A stretch of DNA of 62,107 nucleotides from Cyanobacteria bacterium REEB459 (lineage in GTDB: Bacteria > Cyanobacteriota > Cyanobacteriia > Phormidesmidales > Phormidesmidaceae): assembly GCA_018970085.1 (NCBI GenBank), contig JAGWXD010000016.1, forward strand, positions 1 through 62,107. The letters run 5' to 3'. The position numbers and the translations under genes were made by a program. The notes under the pieces were generated by a model that ran no database searches, was not told the DNA's origin, and was given only the letters and a program-made list of their open reading frames with translations. This document shows positions 50,064-55,571 of this stretch, one piece after another (the stretch's first letter is position 1; every line of letters starts with the position of its first letter).

Positions 50064-50185
50064 ATGGTTTTATCTATAACCTTTCCAAGCTGAGGTGTAG
50101 ATAGTTATCGTAGTGAGTCTATTCATGGGGGAATTTAACGCTAAGATTTTTGTGTTGCTTAGACGTTTTCAAGGATGCCCTGATT

Positions 50186-50467
50186 ATGGCTGATTCTGGT
50201 ACTTCCCCCAATAGCGAGTTGATCGACTCATTGCCGCGGGAGGTTAGGGTAGAAAGTTTGCGCAATGCCCTTGAAACCTTACAAATAGCTGATGAGATTG
50301 CCAAAGAGGGTTATTTAATCACCAGTTCTGAACTGGCTGACTTAATGGATGTGAATGCCAGTGCGGTTACCAGTCGCGGTGAAAATTGGTCCTGGCGCAA
50401 CTGGTTGGTGTCCCGGGTACGACGGGAAGGCAATCAAATCCTCTGGCAAATTGAACGTATAGATTAG
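50186..50467 (+). CDS. small DNA-binding-like protein sharing a domain with the 52438 protein
   Basis: A 93-residue protein starting at ATG 50186 (a longer frame begins at 50150). Residues about 42-90 hold GYLITSSELADLMDVNASAV, then RGENWSWRNWLVSRVRREGN and ILWQIERI. The same pattern (GWLLSTSEVAELLDLSQLEV, GFIFRRSGYRKNGEVAWRV) ends the protein at 52438, so it is a shared module of helix-turn-helix type plus a short beta-hairpin. I do not know its function; DNA binding or partner binding are likely. A good terminator follows 15 bp downstream. Confidence 0.65.
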   Translation: MADSGTSPNSELIDSLPREVRVESLRNALETLQIADEIAKEGYLITSSELADLMDVNASAVTSRGENWSWRNWLVSRVRREGNQILWQIERID

Positions 50468-50573: not shown

Positions 50574-52001
50574 TTGAAACTGTCTCCCGTCTTTCGCAAC
50601 CCCTGGGCTGCTGGCTTTTTAATCGGCTTAATAGTAACTGTAGCCCTTAGCGACTACGGCCGTAGCTTGGCTCCCTTACCGACCTTGACGCCCTTAGTTC
50701 AGGACTCCTTTGTTCGGGTTTATTTTAACCAGAGCCAGGCTGGGGTCTATCGCGATCCTTACCGTCATCTGACTCGTTATGGCGATAATCTGGAACAGGT
50801 GATTATTGATGCCATTGACTCTGCTCAGCATTCTATTGAGGTGGCGGTACAAGAGCTAAATCTGCCTGGCATTGCTGCCGCCCTGGCCCGACGTCATCGT
50901 CAGGGAGTGACGGTGAGAGTGGTACTGGAGCACCGCTATAGTCAGTCTATTTCGCACCGCGGTGGCGATCTCGGCGCCGACTTAAATGACTACGAGCGGA
51001 ACAAAATTCAGGACCTTTACGAGTTTATTGATGAAAATCAGGATGGCCTGCTTAGCCCTGGGGAGCTGGCTACCCGAGATGCCCTGACTATGCTTGATCA
51101 AGCCCATATTGACCGCCTCGATGATCGAGCTGACGGTAGCCAGGGAACGGGTTTAATGCACCATAAGTTTATGGTAGTAGATGGTGAGCGGGTGATTACG
51201 GGCTCCGCTAATTGGACCATGAGCTGTCTGCACGGCGATTTTCTCCAGCCTGACAGTCGCGGTAACGCAAATAACCTGGTGGTGATTCGTAGTTCATCCC
51301 TGGCCCGGGTTTTTCAAAGGGAATTTAACTATCTATGGGGAGATGGACCTGGGGGTCTTGCCGATAGTCGGTTTGGTTTAAACAAACCCTACCGTCCGCC
51401 AGTCATGGTGTCCTTACCGGGGTCGATGATCACGGTGCAGTTCTCCCCTACTGCTGCCAGCCACCCCTGGAGTCAGACTGTCAACGGCCTGGTGGCCAAA
51501 ACCCTGAGGGGTACCCGGCATAGTCTGAGCCTGGCTCTATTTGTTTTTTCTGACTCCGGCTTGAGCCATCACCTATGGCAGTTGGCTCAAGCCGGAGTCA
51601 GGATTCGAGCCTTGATCGATGCCAGTTTTGCCTACCGTAGCTATAGCGAAGCTTTAGATATGTTGGGGCTGGCCTTACCTGACCATCGCTGCCATTGGGA
51701 AGCCAATAACCAGCCCTGGTCCCATGCCCTATCAACCGTCGGTATACCCACCTTGGCCGAAACCGATAAACTGCACCACAAGTTCGCGGTGCTTGATGGC
51801 GAATGGGTCATTACCGGATCCCAAAATTGGAGCCAGGCCGCCAACTACAGCAACGATGAAAACCTACTGGTCATTCATAGTTCTAGGGTGGCCGCCCACT
51901 ACCAGCGAGAGTTTGATCGTCTCTACAGCCAGGCTAGGCTGGGAATTACTCCCGACCTGCAACGAGCGATCGCCCGGCAGAGAAGTCGATGTCATCTATA
52001 A
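50574..52001 (+). CDS. exported phospholipase-D-like protein with an EF-hand insert
   Basis: A 475-residue protein with an N-terminal signal anchor (WAAGFLIGLIVTVALSDYG) and two PLD domains. HKD motifs: H196, K198 and D203 in MHHKFMVVDGE followed by GSANW; and LHHKFAVLDGE followed by GSQNW. Between the strands of the first domain, residues 153-164 form a complete EF-hand calcium loop (DENQDGLLSPGE), so activity may depend on calcium. The fold covers phospholipases, nucleases and transferases; export suggests action in the periplasm or outside. The start is a TTG at 50574 with no strong ribosome site, and is uncertain. The 12-nt repeats begin right after its stop. Confidence 0.8.
   Translation: MKLSPVFRNPWAAGFLIGLIVTVALSDYGRSLAPLPTLTPLVQDSFVRVYFNQSQAGVYRDPYRHLTRYGDNLEQVIIDAIDSAQHSIEVAVQELNLPGIAAALARRHRQGVTVRVVLEHRYSQSISHRGGDLGADLNDYERNKIQDLYEFIDENQDGLLSPGELATRDALTMLDQAHIDRLDDRADGSQGTGLMHHKFMVVDGERVITGSANWTMSCLHGDFLQPDSRGNANNLVVIRSSSLARVFQREFNYLWGDGPGGLADSRFGLNKPYRPPVMVSLPGSMITVQFSPTAASHPWSQTVNGLVAKTLRGTRHSLSLALFVFSDSGLSHHLWQLAQAGVRIRALIDASFAYRSYSEALDMLGLALPDHRCHWEANNQPWSHALSTVGIPTLAETDKLHHKFAVLDGEWVITGSQNWSQAANYSNDENLLVIHSSRVAAHYQREFDRLYSQARLGITPDLQRAIARQRSRCHL
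51551..51600. repeat. perfect 18-bp inverted repeat inside the PLD gene
   Basis: 51551-51568 pairs without mismatch with 51583-51600 across a 14-nt loop, inside the coding sequence of the second PLD domain. The messenger would form a very stable hairpin here. No other copy of these arms was seen in the window. Confidence 0.85.
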
Positions 52002-52090
52002 AGTCCTCAGGACTTTCCTCAGGACTTTCCTGTTTTTGTATAGTTTGTGTATACTATTTTTATTTCCTGAAGACTTTCCGGAGGATAGTT
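52001..52090 (+). promoter_or_regulatory. phased TCCTSAGGA repeats and promoter of the 52091 gene
   Basis: The unit TCCTCAGGACTT occurs twice in tandem (52004-52015, 52016-52027) with a partial third. A -10 box TATACT lies at 52050-52055; the region 17 nt before it (TTCCTG) overlaps the last repeat. Two further units follow at 12-nt phase, TCCTGAAGACTT (52065-52076) and TCCGGAGGA (52077-52085), ending 5 nt before the ATG and overlapping the ribosome site. The layout suggests autoregulation. Confidence 0.7.
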
Positions 52091-52321
52091 ATGCAGTTCC
52101 AGGCGGAGAATGGCTTTGCGGTGAAGGACTTAAGACCGCGCTGCGGGCCAGCCCATAGCGCGGTTTATAAACGCCTGGGGCAGATGGGAATAGTGCCTCG
52201 GCGCCATGGTAGGCATACCTTTGTCACCCTGGCCCAATTAAGGGTCAGGAATGATCTCGATAGTTTTATCAAACAGGGTGGCACGGCTATGGAATTTTTG
52301 AGACGGCGAGGACTGCCGTGA
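52091..52321 (+). CDS. small HTH protein, SAVYKR type
   Basis: A 76-residue protein from ATG 52091; the longer frame upstream runs through the repeat region and is unlikely. It reads as a compact helix-turn-helix: SAVYKRLGQMGIVPRRHGRH with a basic wing, followed by TLAQLRVRNDLDSFIKQGG and MEFLRRRGL. The same series, 50 residues long, begins the protein at 52438, so the two are tandem paralogues. The fold resembles MerR-like or excisionase-like winged HTH proteins. Probably binds the phased repeats before its own gene, an inference from position. Confidence 0.7.
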   Translation: MQFQAENGFAVKDLRPRCGPAHSAVYKRLGQMGIVPRRHGRHTFVTLAQLRVRNDLDSFIKQGGTAMEFLRRRGLP

Positions 52322-52371
52322 TCTGTCTGCTTGTCCCGGAGATCTGCCTGGTCAGATTTGTAGTCAATGCT

Positions 52372-52437
52372 GTCTCCAGAGGAAGAAATTAGGTCATACT
52401 AAGAAGTAATATCCTGAGGATTATCCAGAGGATAATA
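52372..52437 (+). promoter_or_regulatory. promoter and phased repeats of the 52438 gene
   Basis: A -10-like CATACT (52395-52400) is preceded by a TCCAGAGGA unit (52375-52383) that would sit between the -35 and -10 boxes. Then TCCTGAGGATTA (52412-52423) and TCCAGAGGA (52424-52432) follow at 12-nt phase, again ending 5 nt before the ATG. The layout copies that of the upstream paralogue. Confidence 0.65.
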
Positions 52438-53028
52438 ATGAACCCTGGAGAAATAGACCGCTTTCCGGTCAGTCATTTAGAAGGTCGTTATAGTTTGGTG
52501 CGCAGCGCGGTGTACAAGCGCATGGAACAGCTTGGCATCGGGCCTCAGCGGGTGGGTAAGCGGGCCTACATCACTGGTCAACAGTTAGCCCTGATGGATG
52601 ATTTGCATGCCTTTATCAACCAGCAGGGCGGCAGCGCCGCAGAATTTGTCGAGGCCCGCGGTCTAGCCCGATCTCCCCAATCTGCCCAGGGGGGACGCCC
52701 ATCTGCTAAGGGTAAGTCCGGTGGTGCGGAGTTAGTTCCCTTCCCTGCCGATGTGGGCAGCTTGATTAGCGGCATTGTTAGCGAAGTCATCACTCGCCTG
52801 GGGGGCGTACCCCAGGGCGACCCCCTGGGGTACTTTCAAACCTTGGAAACGGCTGTTCAGAAAGGCTGGTTGTTGAGCACCAGCGAAGTTGCTGAACTTC
52901 TCGATCTGAGCCAGCTCGAGGTGGAAGGCTACGGAGACAGCTTTTTTGAAGCAGGCTTCATTTTTCGCAGATCTGGCTATCGTAAAAATGGGGAGGTGGC
53001 CTGGCGAGTGTCTAAGCGCTTGAAATAG
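52438..53028 (+). CDS. two-domain DNA-binding-like protein (SAVYKR HTH plus C-terminal module)
   Basis: A 196-residue protein. Residues 18-76 are the SAVYKR-type helix-turn-helix shared with the 52091 protein (SAVYKRMEQLGIGPQRVGKR, MDDLHAFINQQGGSAAEFVE). Residues 77-100 form a Gly/Ser-rich linker; 105-124 an amphipathic helix; residues 133-196 carry the module shared with the 50186 protein. It therefore links both small families of this region. No known family is recognised; it may be a transcription or DNA-maintenance factor. The upstream repeats suggest self-control. Confidence 0.68.
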   Translation: MNPGEIDRFPVSHLEGRYSLVRSAVYKRMEQLGIGPQRVGKRAYITGQQLALMDDLHAFINQQGGSAAEFVEARGLARSPQSAQGGRPSAKGKSGGAELVPFPADVGSLISGIVSEVITRLGGVPQGDPLGYFQTLETAVQKGWLLSTSEVAELLDLSQLEVEGYGDSFFEAGFIFRRSGYRKNGEVAWRVSKRLK

Positions 53029-53088
53029 GAAAAGTCTTAAAACCCTGCTAATTTACTCTACAATCGGCCATCTATCCGCTACACTAAT

Positions 53089-53115
53089 AAAAAAGCCAGC
53101 GGGTTCAGCGCTGGC
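53089..53115 (-). terminator. minus-strand terminator downstream of the 52438 gene
   Basis: A perfect 7-bp stem GCCAGCG/CGCTGGC (53095-53101 with 53109-53115) is followed on the minus strand by six T residues (53089-53094). For the plus strand the T-run is poor. It would end an RNA made from the minus-strand promoter near 53334. Confidence 0.6.
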
Positions 53116-53149
53116 CTTAATTACACGTGAATGTACAATCAGTTCCTTT

Positions 53150-53184
53150 GGTGATGTTGGTTTTAGCACTGGCATCACCTTTTT
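53150..53184 (+). terminator. plus-strand terminator
   Basis: GGTGATG (53150-53156) pairs with CATCACC (53173-53179) over a 16-nt loop and is followed by five T residues (53180-53184). It may end the 52438 message or a short plus-strand RNA started from a TACACT box at 53079-53084. Confidence 0.55.
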
Positions 53185-53333
53185 GATCGCCGCAGCCAGG
53201 TCTGGTATCTCTGACTAGCAGTGATGCGGGGGTGATGGACTGTTAACCACGCTGGCCTGGAGTTTGCCAGAGGGAGCCTAACCCACCAGTGGAGGTTCTA
53301 TCTCCCCGAGCCCTTCAGTCTTAACGTATTTGC

Positions 53334-53399
53334 AGTATAACATGTCCTGAGGACATTAGTAAGGACATCGATAAAGATCATCAGGATATTCCTGAGGAT
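53334..53399 (-). promoter_or_regulatory. minus-strand promoter with palindromic operator
   Basis: On the minus strand TTACTA (53357-53362 on the plus map) and TATACT (53334-53339) stand exactly 17 nt apart, and the spacer is filled by the 15-nt palindrome ATGTCCTGAGGACAT (53342-53356). A second, imperfect 23-nt palindrome of the same type covers 53377-53399. The predicted transcript would run from about 53327 towards 53089 through a stretch with no known gene; the remaining part up to speA (53400-53594) holds no gene either. Confidence 0.6.
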
Positions 53400-53594
53400 C
53401 TTTGCGCTGAAGATGCGTGTTAGTGCCTTCGGGCAATCCCTCGGATGTCTTGGGCAATCGCCTCTAGTGAAGGCTAAAGTTTCTCCGCTTTGGGTTGTTT
53501 GTCATGGCGGTTTGTTACAATTTGGTCATTCAACATGCAGCCTGGATAGGCATCCAGCCACCTGCACTCCTAGCTGTGTAAAAGGGCATCTTCT

Positions 53595-55571
53595 ATGACT
53601 ATGGCTCCCCATCAACCGTTTCAGCCACCTACTCCGGTTGATCGGGCTTCCTTAGAAAATATGTTTACCCCTGCTGCTCCATCTAATTGGACCATTGAGG
53701 ACAGTGAAGAGCTCTATCGGATTCATAGTTGGGGAAATCCCTATTTTTCCATCAATGCTGATGGTCACCTGACGGTGTCTCCCAAGGGGGACCGAGGGGG
53801 GTCACTGGATTTGTTTGATCTAGTCGAGTCTATTCAACGGCGTAACCTCAACCTGCCTTTATTGATTCGCTTTTCTGATATCTTGCAGGACCGTATTGAG
53901 CGCATTAATGCTTGCTTTGCCAAGGCCATTGCTCGTTACAAGTACAGTGGGGTCTACCGGGGTGTGTTTCCGGTGAAGTGTAACCAGCAACGCCAACTGC
54001 TAGAGGATGTGGTGCGTTTTGGTAAACCCTATCAGTTCGGGCTGGAGGCTGGATCTAAACCAGAACTGCTGATTGCCCTGGCTACCCTGGATACTCCGGG
54101 GGCTTTGCTCATCTGCAACGGCTATAAGGACCGAGACTATATTGAAACAGCGATGCTGGGCCAGCGTTTGGGTCAGCAGCCCATTATTGTAATTGAGCAA
54201 ATGGCTGAGGTTGAGTTGGCTATCGCCGCCAGCCAGAACCTGAAAATTCGCCCTGTGTTGGGGGTTCGGGCAAAGCTCAGTACTAAGGGAAGTGGACGTT
54301 GGGGGATTTCGGCAGGAGATCGCGCTAAATTTGGCCTGACGGTGCCGGAAATTTTGGCCCTGGTAGATCGGCTGCGCCAGGAAGGGATGCTGGATTGTCT
54401 CCAGCTTTTGCACTTTCATATCGGCTCTCAAATTTCTGCCATTAGCGTTGTTAAAGAAGCCCTGCGGGAAGCCAGTCGCATTTATGTTGAGCTAGCGGAT
54501 CTAGGAGCCAATATGCAATATCTGGATGTGGGAGGGGGGCTGGCGGTAGACTACGACGGTTCCCAAACCAACTTCTATGTATCTAAAAATTACAGCACTC
54601 AAAACTACGCCAATGACGTTGTTGCTGAAGTACAAGAAGCCTGCCGGGCTAAGGGGGTGGCGGTGCCTACCCTGGTTAGCGAAAGTGGTCGGGCGATTTC
54701 CTCCCATCAGTCAGTTCTGGTATTTGATGTGCTGGGTATTAGTGATGCCCCTTCCCAGGACAACGTGGAGGTACCTGGCGATGCCGATCATTTGATTTTA
54801 AGGGAACTCTACGAAATCTATCAAAATCTGAATTCTAAGACTGTGCAAGAGCTCTATAACGACGCTCTACAGTTTAAGGAGGAAACCATCAGCCTTTTTA
54901 ACTTTGGCTATCTCAGTCTCTCAGACCGGGCCAGGGCAGAACGTTTGTTTTGGGCCTGTTGTCGTAAGGCGTTGTCGGTGGTTCGTGATGCTGAGTATAT
55001 TCCTGAGGACATTGAGGAACTGCATCAGAGCATGGCCTCGATTTATTACATTAATCTATCGGTTTTTCAGTCCATGCCCGATGCCTGGGCTATTGATCAG
55101 CTATTCCCCATTTTACCGATTCACCGACTTAATGAAGTTCCTTCCAGTCGGGGCACCCTGGCGGATTTAACCTGTGATAGCGATGGTAAGGTTAATCAAT
55201 TTATTGATTTAAGGGATGTCAAGCATGTCCTGGAGTTGCATCCTTTGCAGCCCGGTAAGCCCTACTATCTGGGGATGTTTTTGGGGGGTGCTTACCAGGA
55301 AATTATGGGAAATCTCCATAATTTGTTTGGCGATACCAATGCTGTGCACATTCATATGACTCCCAAGGGCTACCAGGTTGAGCATGTGGTTAAGGGAGAC
55401 ACCATGACGGAGGTGCTGGGCTATGTGCAGTATGATGCCGAAGATATGATTGAGAACATTCGGCGCCGTTCGGAAATGGCTTTGCATGATAACCATATCA
55501 CCCTGGAAGAGTCTCAACTGCTTTTGCAGCATTATGAACATAGCCTCAGCCAGTATACCTACCTGGTTTAG
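53595..55571 (+). CDS. speA: biosynthetic arginine decarboxylase
   Basis: SpeA decarboxylates arginine to agmatine, the entry to putrescine and spermidine, and in cyanobacteria a main route of arginine breakdown. The 658-residue PLP enzyme of fold type III is full length: the PLP-lysine lies in YRGVFPVKCNQQRQLLEDV, followed by GLEAGSKPELLIAL, LHFHIGSQISA, LDVGGGLAVDYDGS and the glycine-rich phosphate site. Start ATG 53595. A TACAAT box (53516-53521) might be its -10. It is followed by a structured 3' region ending in a T-run. Confidence 0.96.
   Translation: MTMAPHQPFQPPTPVDRASLENMFTPAAPSNWTIEDSEELYRIHSWGNPYFSINADGHLTVSPKGDRGGSLDLFDLVESIQRRNLNLPLLIRFSDILQDRIERINACFAKAIARYKYSGVYRGVFPVKCNQQRQLLEDVVRFGKPYQFGLEAGSKPELLIALATLDTPGALLICNGYKDRDYIETAMLGQRLGQQPIIVIEQMAEVELAIAASQNLKIRPVLGVRAKLSTKGSGRWGISAGDRAKFGLTVPEILALVDRLRQEGMLDCLQLLHFHIGSQISAISVVKEALREASRIYVELADLGANMQYLDVGGGLAVDYDGSQTNFYVSKNYSTQNYANDVVAEVQEACRAKGVAVPTLVSESGRAISSHQSVLVFDVLGISDAPSQDNVEVPGDADHLILRELYEIYQNLNSKTVQELYNDALQFKEETISLFNFGYLSLSDRARAERLFWACCRKALSVVRDAEYIPEDIEELHQSMASIYYINLSVFQSMPDAWAIDQLFPILPIHRLNEVPSSRGTLADLTCDSDGKVNQFIDLRDVKHVLELHPLQPGKPYYLGMFLGGAYQEIMGNLHNLFGDTNAVHIHMTPKGYQVEHVVKGDTMTEVLGYVQYDAEDMIENIRRRSEMALHDNHITLEESQLLLQHYEHSLSQYTYLV

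Follow-up and report, generated by a model that had tools for sequence, protein, structure and literature searches.

In a 62,107-nt stretch of the genome of Cyanobacteria bacterium REEB459 (assembly GCA_018970085.1, contig JAGWXD010000016.1; hereafter the window), short TCCTSAGGA operator units mark what is probably a two-product chromosomal module. Its first product, the 196-aa regulator encoded by gene B, would act as an autorepressor, and a structured RNA encoded convergently to gene B would be its sole other evident target. This reading is built on computed properties: the operators and their confinement to the locus, the conservation and structure of the RNA, its linkage to B, and the joint absence of all parts from some relatives. 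The operators and genes of the window are arranged as follows.

52004–52032, no strand: operator array 5′ of gene A, with units at 52004 and 52016 and a half unit, TCCTG, at 52028, in 12-nt phase.
52050–52055, plus strand: probable −10 box of gene A, TATACT, read from the sequence; an operator sits where the −35 box would be.
52065–52085, no strand: operator pair over the gene A ribosome site (units at 52065 and 52077).
52091–52321, plus strand: gene A, a 76-aa short paralog with the N-terminal winged-helix part only.
52375–52383, no strand: lone operator unit 5′ of the gene B promoter (unit at 52375).
52395–52400, plus strand: probable −10 box of gene B, CATACT (GATACT or CATACT in relatives of the genus).
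52412–52432, no strand: operator pair over the gene B ribosome site (units at 52412 and 52424).
52438–53028, plus strand: gene B, a 196-aa regulator with two folded domains joined by a low-confidence linker.
53345–53365, no strand: operator units at the RNA promoter, one perfect (53345) and one degenerate and weak (53357).
53378–53398, no strand: second operator pair 5′ of the RNA promoter (units at 53378 and 53390).

A preliminary description of this DNA, made from the letters alone, had proposed two tandem paralogs with TCCTSAGGA-like units at 12-nt phase 5′ of both, the last unit overlapping the ribosome site and ending 5 nt before the ATG, as well as a recurrence of the motif at a promoter at 53334–53362. 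These observations hold. Gene A is 46% identical to residues 8–79 of B (E 9.8e-12), the unit positions are confirmed in the sequence, and in both genes the last unit holds the AGGA of the ribosome site and stops 5 nt before the start codon. At the third site a minus-strand extended −10 box abuts the unit, an arrangement that recurs in relatives.

The rare object is the 12-nt phased pair, not the single unit. Single TCCTSAGGA units with at most one mismatch occur at 27 places in the window versus 15.9 expected, a mild enrichment that one of 100 shuffles reached. The phased pair TCCTSAGGANNNTCCTSAGGA, searched on the forward strand of the whole genome (3,241,887 bases) with at most three mismatches, occurs at 12 places, compared to six for the reversed control pattern; six of the 12 lie within 52004–55009 of the window and the other six outside the locus. 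All five pairs with at most two mismatches fall in the window, so that the repeats are not common across the 3.24-Mb genome. A repeat-family search at length 14 found no family in the module region, probably because the units are short and arranged in tandem. The pair at 54989, which lies inside speA and counts among those five, may be a chance occurrence. speA was also considered as a conserved target and rejected: six relatives of the genus have the operator cluster with no speA match within the 19–20 kb examined, and its position in the window thus looks incidental.

The confinement of the pairs extends to other genomes. Among ten genomes with the module, 50 of 57 forward pairs with at most two mismatches, and 37 of 37 with zero or one mismatch, lie at the module locus. 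Eight relatives without it, among them three with a distant B homolog (G039, G031 and G015), contain seven pairs in total with at most two mismatches, none better than two. The layout was counted at 47 loci of relatives, one per genome, omitting a broken copy in G059 and the distant homolog L045. The pair over the B ribosome site is present at 44 of these loci and a second pair upstream of B at 30. In the genus, all 17 loci carry a pair at −26/−14 of B and 16 carry an upstream pair at about −75/−63, the two pairs enclosing the GATACT/CATACT box; the exception is the window, which has one unit and no pair at the upstream place. On the RNA side, 46 of 47 cores have a pair in the 110 nt upstream of them (the remaining one, L108, at 122 nt), and the last unit abuts the extended −10 box of the RNA promoter in 43 of 47. 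A spacing of 12 nt is the commonest among the phased direct repeats.

At some loci (L033, L034, L036, L106–L108, L113, L114, L117 and others) pairs also lie within the coding linker, at about +243 to +290 of B. They are in frame and read SSGxSSG or similar, e.g., TCC TCA GGA TTG TCC TCA GGA for SSGLSSG in L033, the 12-nt unit spacing being equal to four codons.

Since the last pair sits in the 5′ leader and holds the ribosome site at 44 of 47 loci, the units might be thought to act in the mRNA, as hairpins at the ribosome site, instead of as DNA operators. We regard this as very improbable: pairs also lie 5′ of the −10 boxes of B and of the RNA, outside the predicted transcripts, and the units are short palindromes with 1-nt centres.

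The model of B offers a candidate DNA reader, with two predicted domains.

52456–52662, plus strand: B residues 7–75, RacA/MerR/pSK1-Par-like winged helix (model).
52816–53025, plus strand: B residues 127–196, small domain, weakly winged-helix-like (model).

AlphaFold2 places an N-terminal winged helix before a low-confidence linker (residues 77–126) and a second small domain. The linker is modeled without helix, but its predicted local distance difference test (pLDDT) score is below 50, and with a whole-chain predicted template modeling score of 0.35 the relative arrangement of the domains is not fixed by the model. Residues 6–75 match RacA (Z-score 9.1; root-mean-square deviation (rmsd) 2.5 over 67), GlnR (8.4), SoxR (8.1), MtaN (7.8), and pSK1 Par (8.1; rmsd 1.1 over 53). 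Foldseek matches of this domain are weak (best E 0.056), so that the likeness to MerR and RacA holds at the fold level only. No MerR or helix-turn-helix model of Pfam or NCBIfam matches B at E≤1; the one sub-cut-off Pfam match is DLEU7 (E 0.008), the best sequence relative in the PDB has E 0.3, and no defence or phage family matches at E≤0.01. The second domain alone is modeled with a pLDDT of 91.5 and has weak winged-helix-like matches (best Z 4.7) with no clear family. Proteins encoded at 50150–50467 of the window and at 1495–2529 of locus L003 weakly match just this C-terminal domain, which may be a shared cyanobacterial module.

When 76 loci were compared, the TCCTSAGGA pair near the ribosome site was found at 45 of 49 loci whose recognition helix reads [RK]S[AG][VIF]Y, and at none of the 27 others. 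Five loci with an RTALYER helix (L130–L134, from the f26 genomes G180, G297 and G279) instead use a similar layout of GTGAAC units spaced 11 nt apart, suggesting that operator turnover accompanies a change of the recognition helix. This correspondence of helix and operator is the best evidence at the sequence level that the N-terminal domain of B may read the units. In G279, and for one of the G297 copies, GTGAAC units also follow B directly.

The right-hand operator cluster, 53345–53398, is likely the promoter of a conserved structured RNA on the minus strand, a putative second product of the module that the preliminary description had missed.

53089–53327, minus strand: predicted non-coding RNA of about 239 nt, convergent with B, its ends placed from promoter and terminator.
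53143–53322, minus strand: conserved structured RNA core (136 bits to covariance model R1).
53089–53116, minus strand: rho-independent terminator-like hairpin of the RNA (GGCCAGCG...CGCTGGC, then a T run).
53334–53342, minus strand: extended −10 box (TGTTATACT) of the RNA promoter, abutting the operator; TATACT runs from 53339 to 53334.

In relatives of the genus, the sequence separating B from the cluster shows high conservation, and the minus strand gives its best reading, as promoter, core and terminator. The core measures 140–190 nt across relatives, and 45 of 47 RNA sequences, that of the window included, have a terminator-like hairpin and T run 3′ of it. A covariance model built from 16 sequences detected the RNA in 26 of the 63 order genomes and in 43 of the 388 genomes sampled from the class; in a phylum sample, model R2 matched 5 of 386 genomes, one of them weakly (G278, E 0.008). 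In an alignment of 47 sequences, 98.7% of 1641 cells are paired versus 94.7 in shuffles, a figure biased towards the model to which the alignment was fitted. The stronger point is the count of double changes: 18 of 35 pairs have changes on both sides, versus 6.7 in shuffles and 0 to 4 in slid controls. A candidate pseudoknot, CACUGG/CCAGUG, was discarded, as its cells pair in 99.3% but with no two-sided changes and with shuffles equal, and covariation thus lends it no support. Rfam 15 covariance models gave no match at E≤5 in 51900–53700 of the window, and in the relatives L022, L027, L019 and L021 five matches, all below gathering scores and none over the RNA core. Among the open-access literature matches listed, nothing concerned the TCCTSAGGA motif or the RNA.

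Could the transcript instead serve as the mRNA of a small peptide that begins MPVL.PTSP and is encoded in the 3′ hairpin? A frame starting [MV]P can be read in 46 of 47 sequences, with MPVL in most. However, codons 4–6 show mostly non-synonymous changes by eye while the hairpin pairs are largely kept, and the readings vary in length from 13 to 67 residues, many running through the terminator. We therefore give a coding role little credence.

The RNA is tightly linked to B. Relatives of B at E≤1e-5, distant homologs included, occur in 39 of the 63 genomes of the order, and matches at E≤1e-18 in 67 of the 388 genomes of the class sample, which is uneven and contains related, non-independent genomes. 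All 43 genomes with the RNA in that sample carry B, a co-occurrence with a log10 probability of −39.5 under independence, kinship being ignored. The 46 RNA matches, from 45 genomes, comprise 44 that converge with the nearest B and two that diverge from it, with gaps of 49–391 nt (median 89); this count omits the E 0.008 match in G278 and weaker second matches in two genomes, G012 and G175. A strong RNA match is present at 35 of 39 named loci with B, the others being L154, where the contig ends, L179, L180 and L181. No protein other than B is present at every one of 35 loci from 20 genera; the next protein cluster reaches six genera. L033, L034 and L055 contain tandem or broken extra copies of B within one locus, and L033 a second copy of the RNA as well.

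We propose that the N-terminal RacA/MerR-type winged helix of B recognizes the 9-bp unit, and that adjacent B molecules would occupy units spaced by 12 bp in a cooperative manner, on about the same face of the DNA. Pairs bound at gene B would mask its −35 region and ribosome site, leading to autorepression, and those just 5′ of the extended −10 box would keep the RNA, the presumed output of the module, repressed until B is titrated or inactivated. The RNA appears as the sole evident target of B besides itself because pairs with zero or one mismatch are confined to the locus in the genomes searched. DNA binding, cooperativity, transcription, a role for the RNA, and repression over activation are all steps that we infer. 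With an operator in the −35 place at the RNA promoter and on both sides of the B start region, repression of both products is the simplest reading. Short B-like paralogs comprising the N-terminal domain lie 5′ of B in the window (gene A, 52091–52321) and at L054, L056, L057 and L124; such proteins may compete for the same operators.

The main rival is activation of the RNA by B, which, occupying the site of a −35 box, might recruit RNA polymerase or remodel the spacer like MerR activators. The MerR-like fold of the model would suit such a role, as would the operator, which runs from roughly −38 to −18 at the RNA promoter, counted from an inferred start, and abuts the −10 box in 43 of 47 cases. 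Yet the same operator lies over the B ribosome site, where repression is the natural reading, and extended −10 promoters can work without a −35 box. Activation is a real but distinctly less probable option.

Self-regulation, already suggested in the preliminary description, is thus well supported at the level of sequence by the ribosome-site pairs, the confinement of the 0–1-mismatch pairs and the helix–operator match; its suggestion of an iteron-like or partition-like system finds no support in the neighboring genes. At the 35 loci from 20 genera, neither a ParA-type ATPase, as in ParABS systems, nor a Rep gene, as in iteron replicons, nor any other gene is a conserved neighbor of B.

A further possibility is that B, like pSK1 Par or RacA, works alone in partition or DNA anchoring, with the arrays as a centromere and the RNA secondary. 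According to passages of PMC11500499, pSK1 Par acts as a single protein, and it and RacA have a central coiled coil. B shares the N-terminal winged-helix fold with both in the model, at fold level, and differs by its low-confidence linker, second small domain and partner RNA. Distant B homologs occur on 22 cyanobacterial plasmids, and some pairs lie beyond promoters (spread over 1.8 kb in G085, and inside B at 16 of 47 loci), which, with the shared fold, would favor partition. Against it, the module of the window is surrounded by ordinary chromosomal genes, no ParA is conserved, and the strong conservation of the RNA would be left unexplained. Moreover, the six plasmid loci inspected (L183 to L188) have no ParA beside B, no RNA match, and upstream sequences that differ from those of the chromosomal module. 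We consider partition unlikely. At five of these six loci, which are on small plasmids, a gene for a tyrosine recombinase or a site-specific integrase lies no more than 4 kb from the B homolog, and by eye some plasmid homologs have their own repeats ahead of the start. A blastn search with one representative as query found no RNA on plasmids. A phage origin was likewise rejected: the phage collection contains no B match, none of the 19 IMG/VR stretches fitting the peptide pattern encodes a B relative, and none of the 74 viral stretches fitting the RNA pattern matches model R1 at E≤0.1.

Eight genomes of the same genus lack the module, four of them holding a distant B homolog elsewhere, and all eight retain the phospholipase-D-like gene found upstream of the module in the genus. 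Both flanks match those of module genomes in six of the eight, and the left side alone in G035 and G039. The match of G033 and G034 to G045 holds on the left flank up to −46 and resumes at +1047, both positions counted relative to B; about 1.09 kb with B, the RNA and the cluster is missing, and a 21-nt upstream operator pair identical to that of G045 is kept. The other six have no pair at up to four mismatches in the stretch examined. From the matching flanks and the joint absence it follows that the module is dispensable and absent as a unit; the operator scar in G033 and G034 suggests loss and not a site before gain. The phospholipase-D-like protein of the window (50574–52001) contains by eye an EF-hand-like stretch, and its best PADLOC matches are DrmC models. 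Eight of 35 loci, in this genus (g1) and one other, have its gene 5′ of the module.

Several observations weigh against the proposed autorepressor–RNA module. Three of the 47 loci (L039, L120 and L122) have no pair near the ribosome site, and in the window itself the RNA-promoter unit at 53357 is degenerate and B has a single upstream unit in place of a pair. The pairs inside B at 16 of 47 loci, none of them among the 17 genus loci, and those spread across 1.8 kb in G085 go beyond simple promoter repression. Of the 67 B genomes in the class sample, 24 have no RNA match, most being more distant or of other families. They comprise G041, where the contig ends at B, the order members G051 and G054 with a close B, three f26 genomes with B at E 1e-41 to 1e-46, seven of family f16, and others more distant; model R2 found no RNA at the fetched loci of RNA-less B genomes, those of f16 and f26 included. 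Folded as a single sequence, the window RNA does not stand out (z −1.46). Finally, crude duplex energies between the RNA and B mRNA show no cognate preference: the cognate is lower in 17 of 40 cases, the medians are −43.4 for cognate and −44.3 for non-cognate pairs, and the mean favors the cognate solely through one artefact row (L125, with a mis-cut mRNA).

Among known systems, BldC of Streptomyces, a MerR-like protein, forms cooperative head-to-tail multimers on DNA direct repeats, according to PMC5859096. B resembles it as a small MerR-type winged helix with direct repeats, its multimeric binding being a prediction. In contrast to BldC, with 68 residues and a wider regulon, B has a linker, a second domain and a single-locus evident target, and its units are themselves short palindromes. 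RdfS, an oligomerizing winged-helix excision factor that binds its own promoter (PMC11963761), shows no apparent consensus motif, whereas the B module has a sharp one; nor is an integrase conserved beside the chromosomal B module. CvkR, a MerR-type repressor, affects the abundance of the trans-activating CRISPR RNA (tracrRNA) of a type V-K CRISPR-associated transposon, as passages of PMC9938897 describe. It is likewise a cyanobacterial MerR-type regulator tied to a non-coding RNA, and on this likeness the module might be a relic of such a transposon, with B and the RNA standing for the regulator and the tracrRNA. However, CvkR uses a different operator, AnnACATnATGTnnT, acts indirectly on its RNA and is accompanied by cas12k and transposon genes. 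The operators of B lie directly at the RNA promoter, no cas12k or transposon gene is conserved beside it, and the window genome lacks Cas12k, which 4 of 11 module genomes have. A relic origin is thus the least credible of the alternatives.

The module brings together an RNA that has no match in Rfam 15 and a regulator family that has none above cut-off in Pfam or NCBIfam. In the samples searched, the RNA occurs in 45 genomes under 22 genus labels, with wiring that is readable from the sequence. As near matches to the operator are restricted to the locus, the role of the RNA could be accessible through a single deletion and one RNA sequencing experiment in a cultured strain such as Nodosilinea nodulosa PCC 7104. 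The two operator alphabets, TCCTSAGGA and GTGAAC, in one layout provide a natural test of how winged-helix specificity changes. More speculatively, and in our view with a rather small chance of being correct, this may be an accessory module of a new class, whose effector is the structured RNA alone, silenced by a dedicated repressor and gained and lost as a unit like defence or addiction modules. If so, release could come by titration of the repressor through the RNA, through operator-bearing invading DNA, or through a ligand of the C-terminal domain, in a module whose regulator has plasmid-borne relatives.

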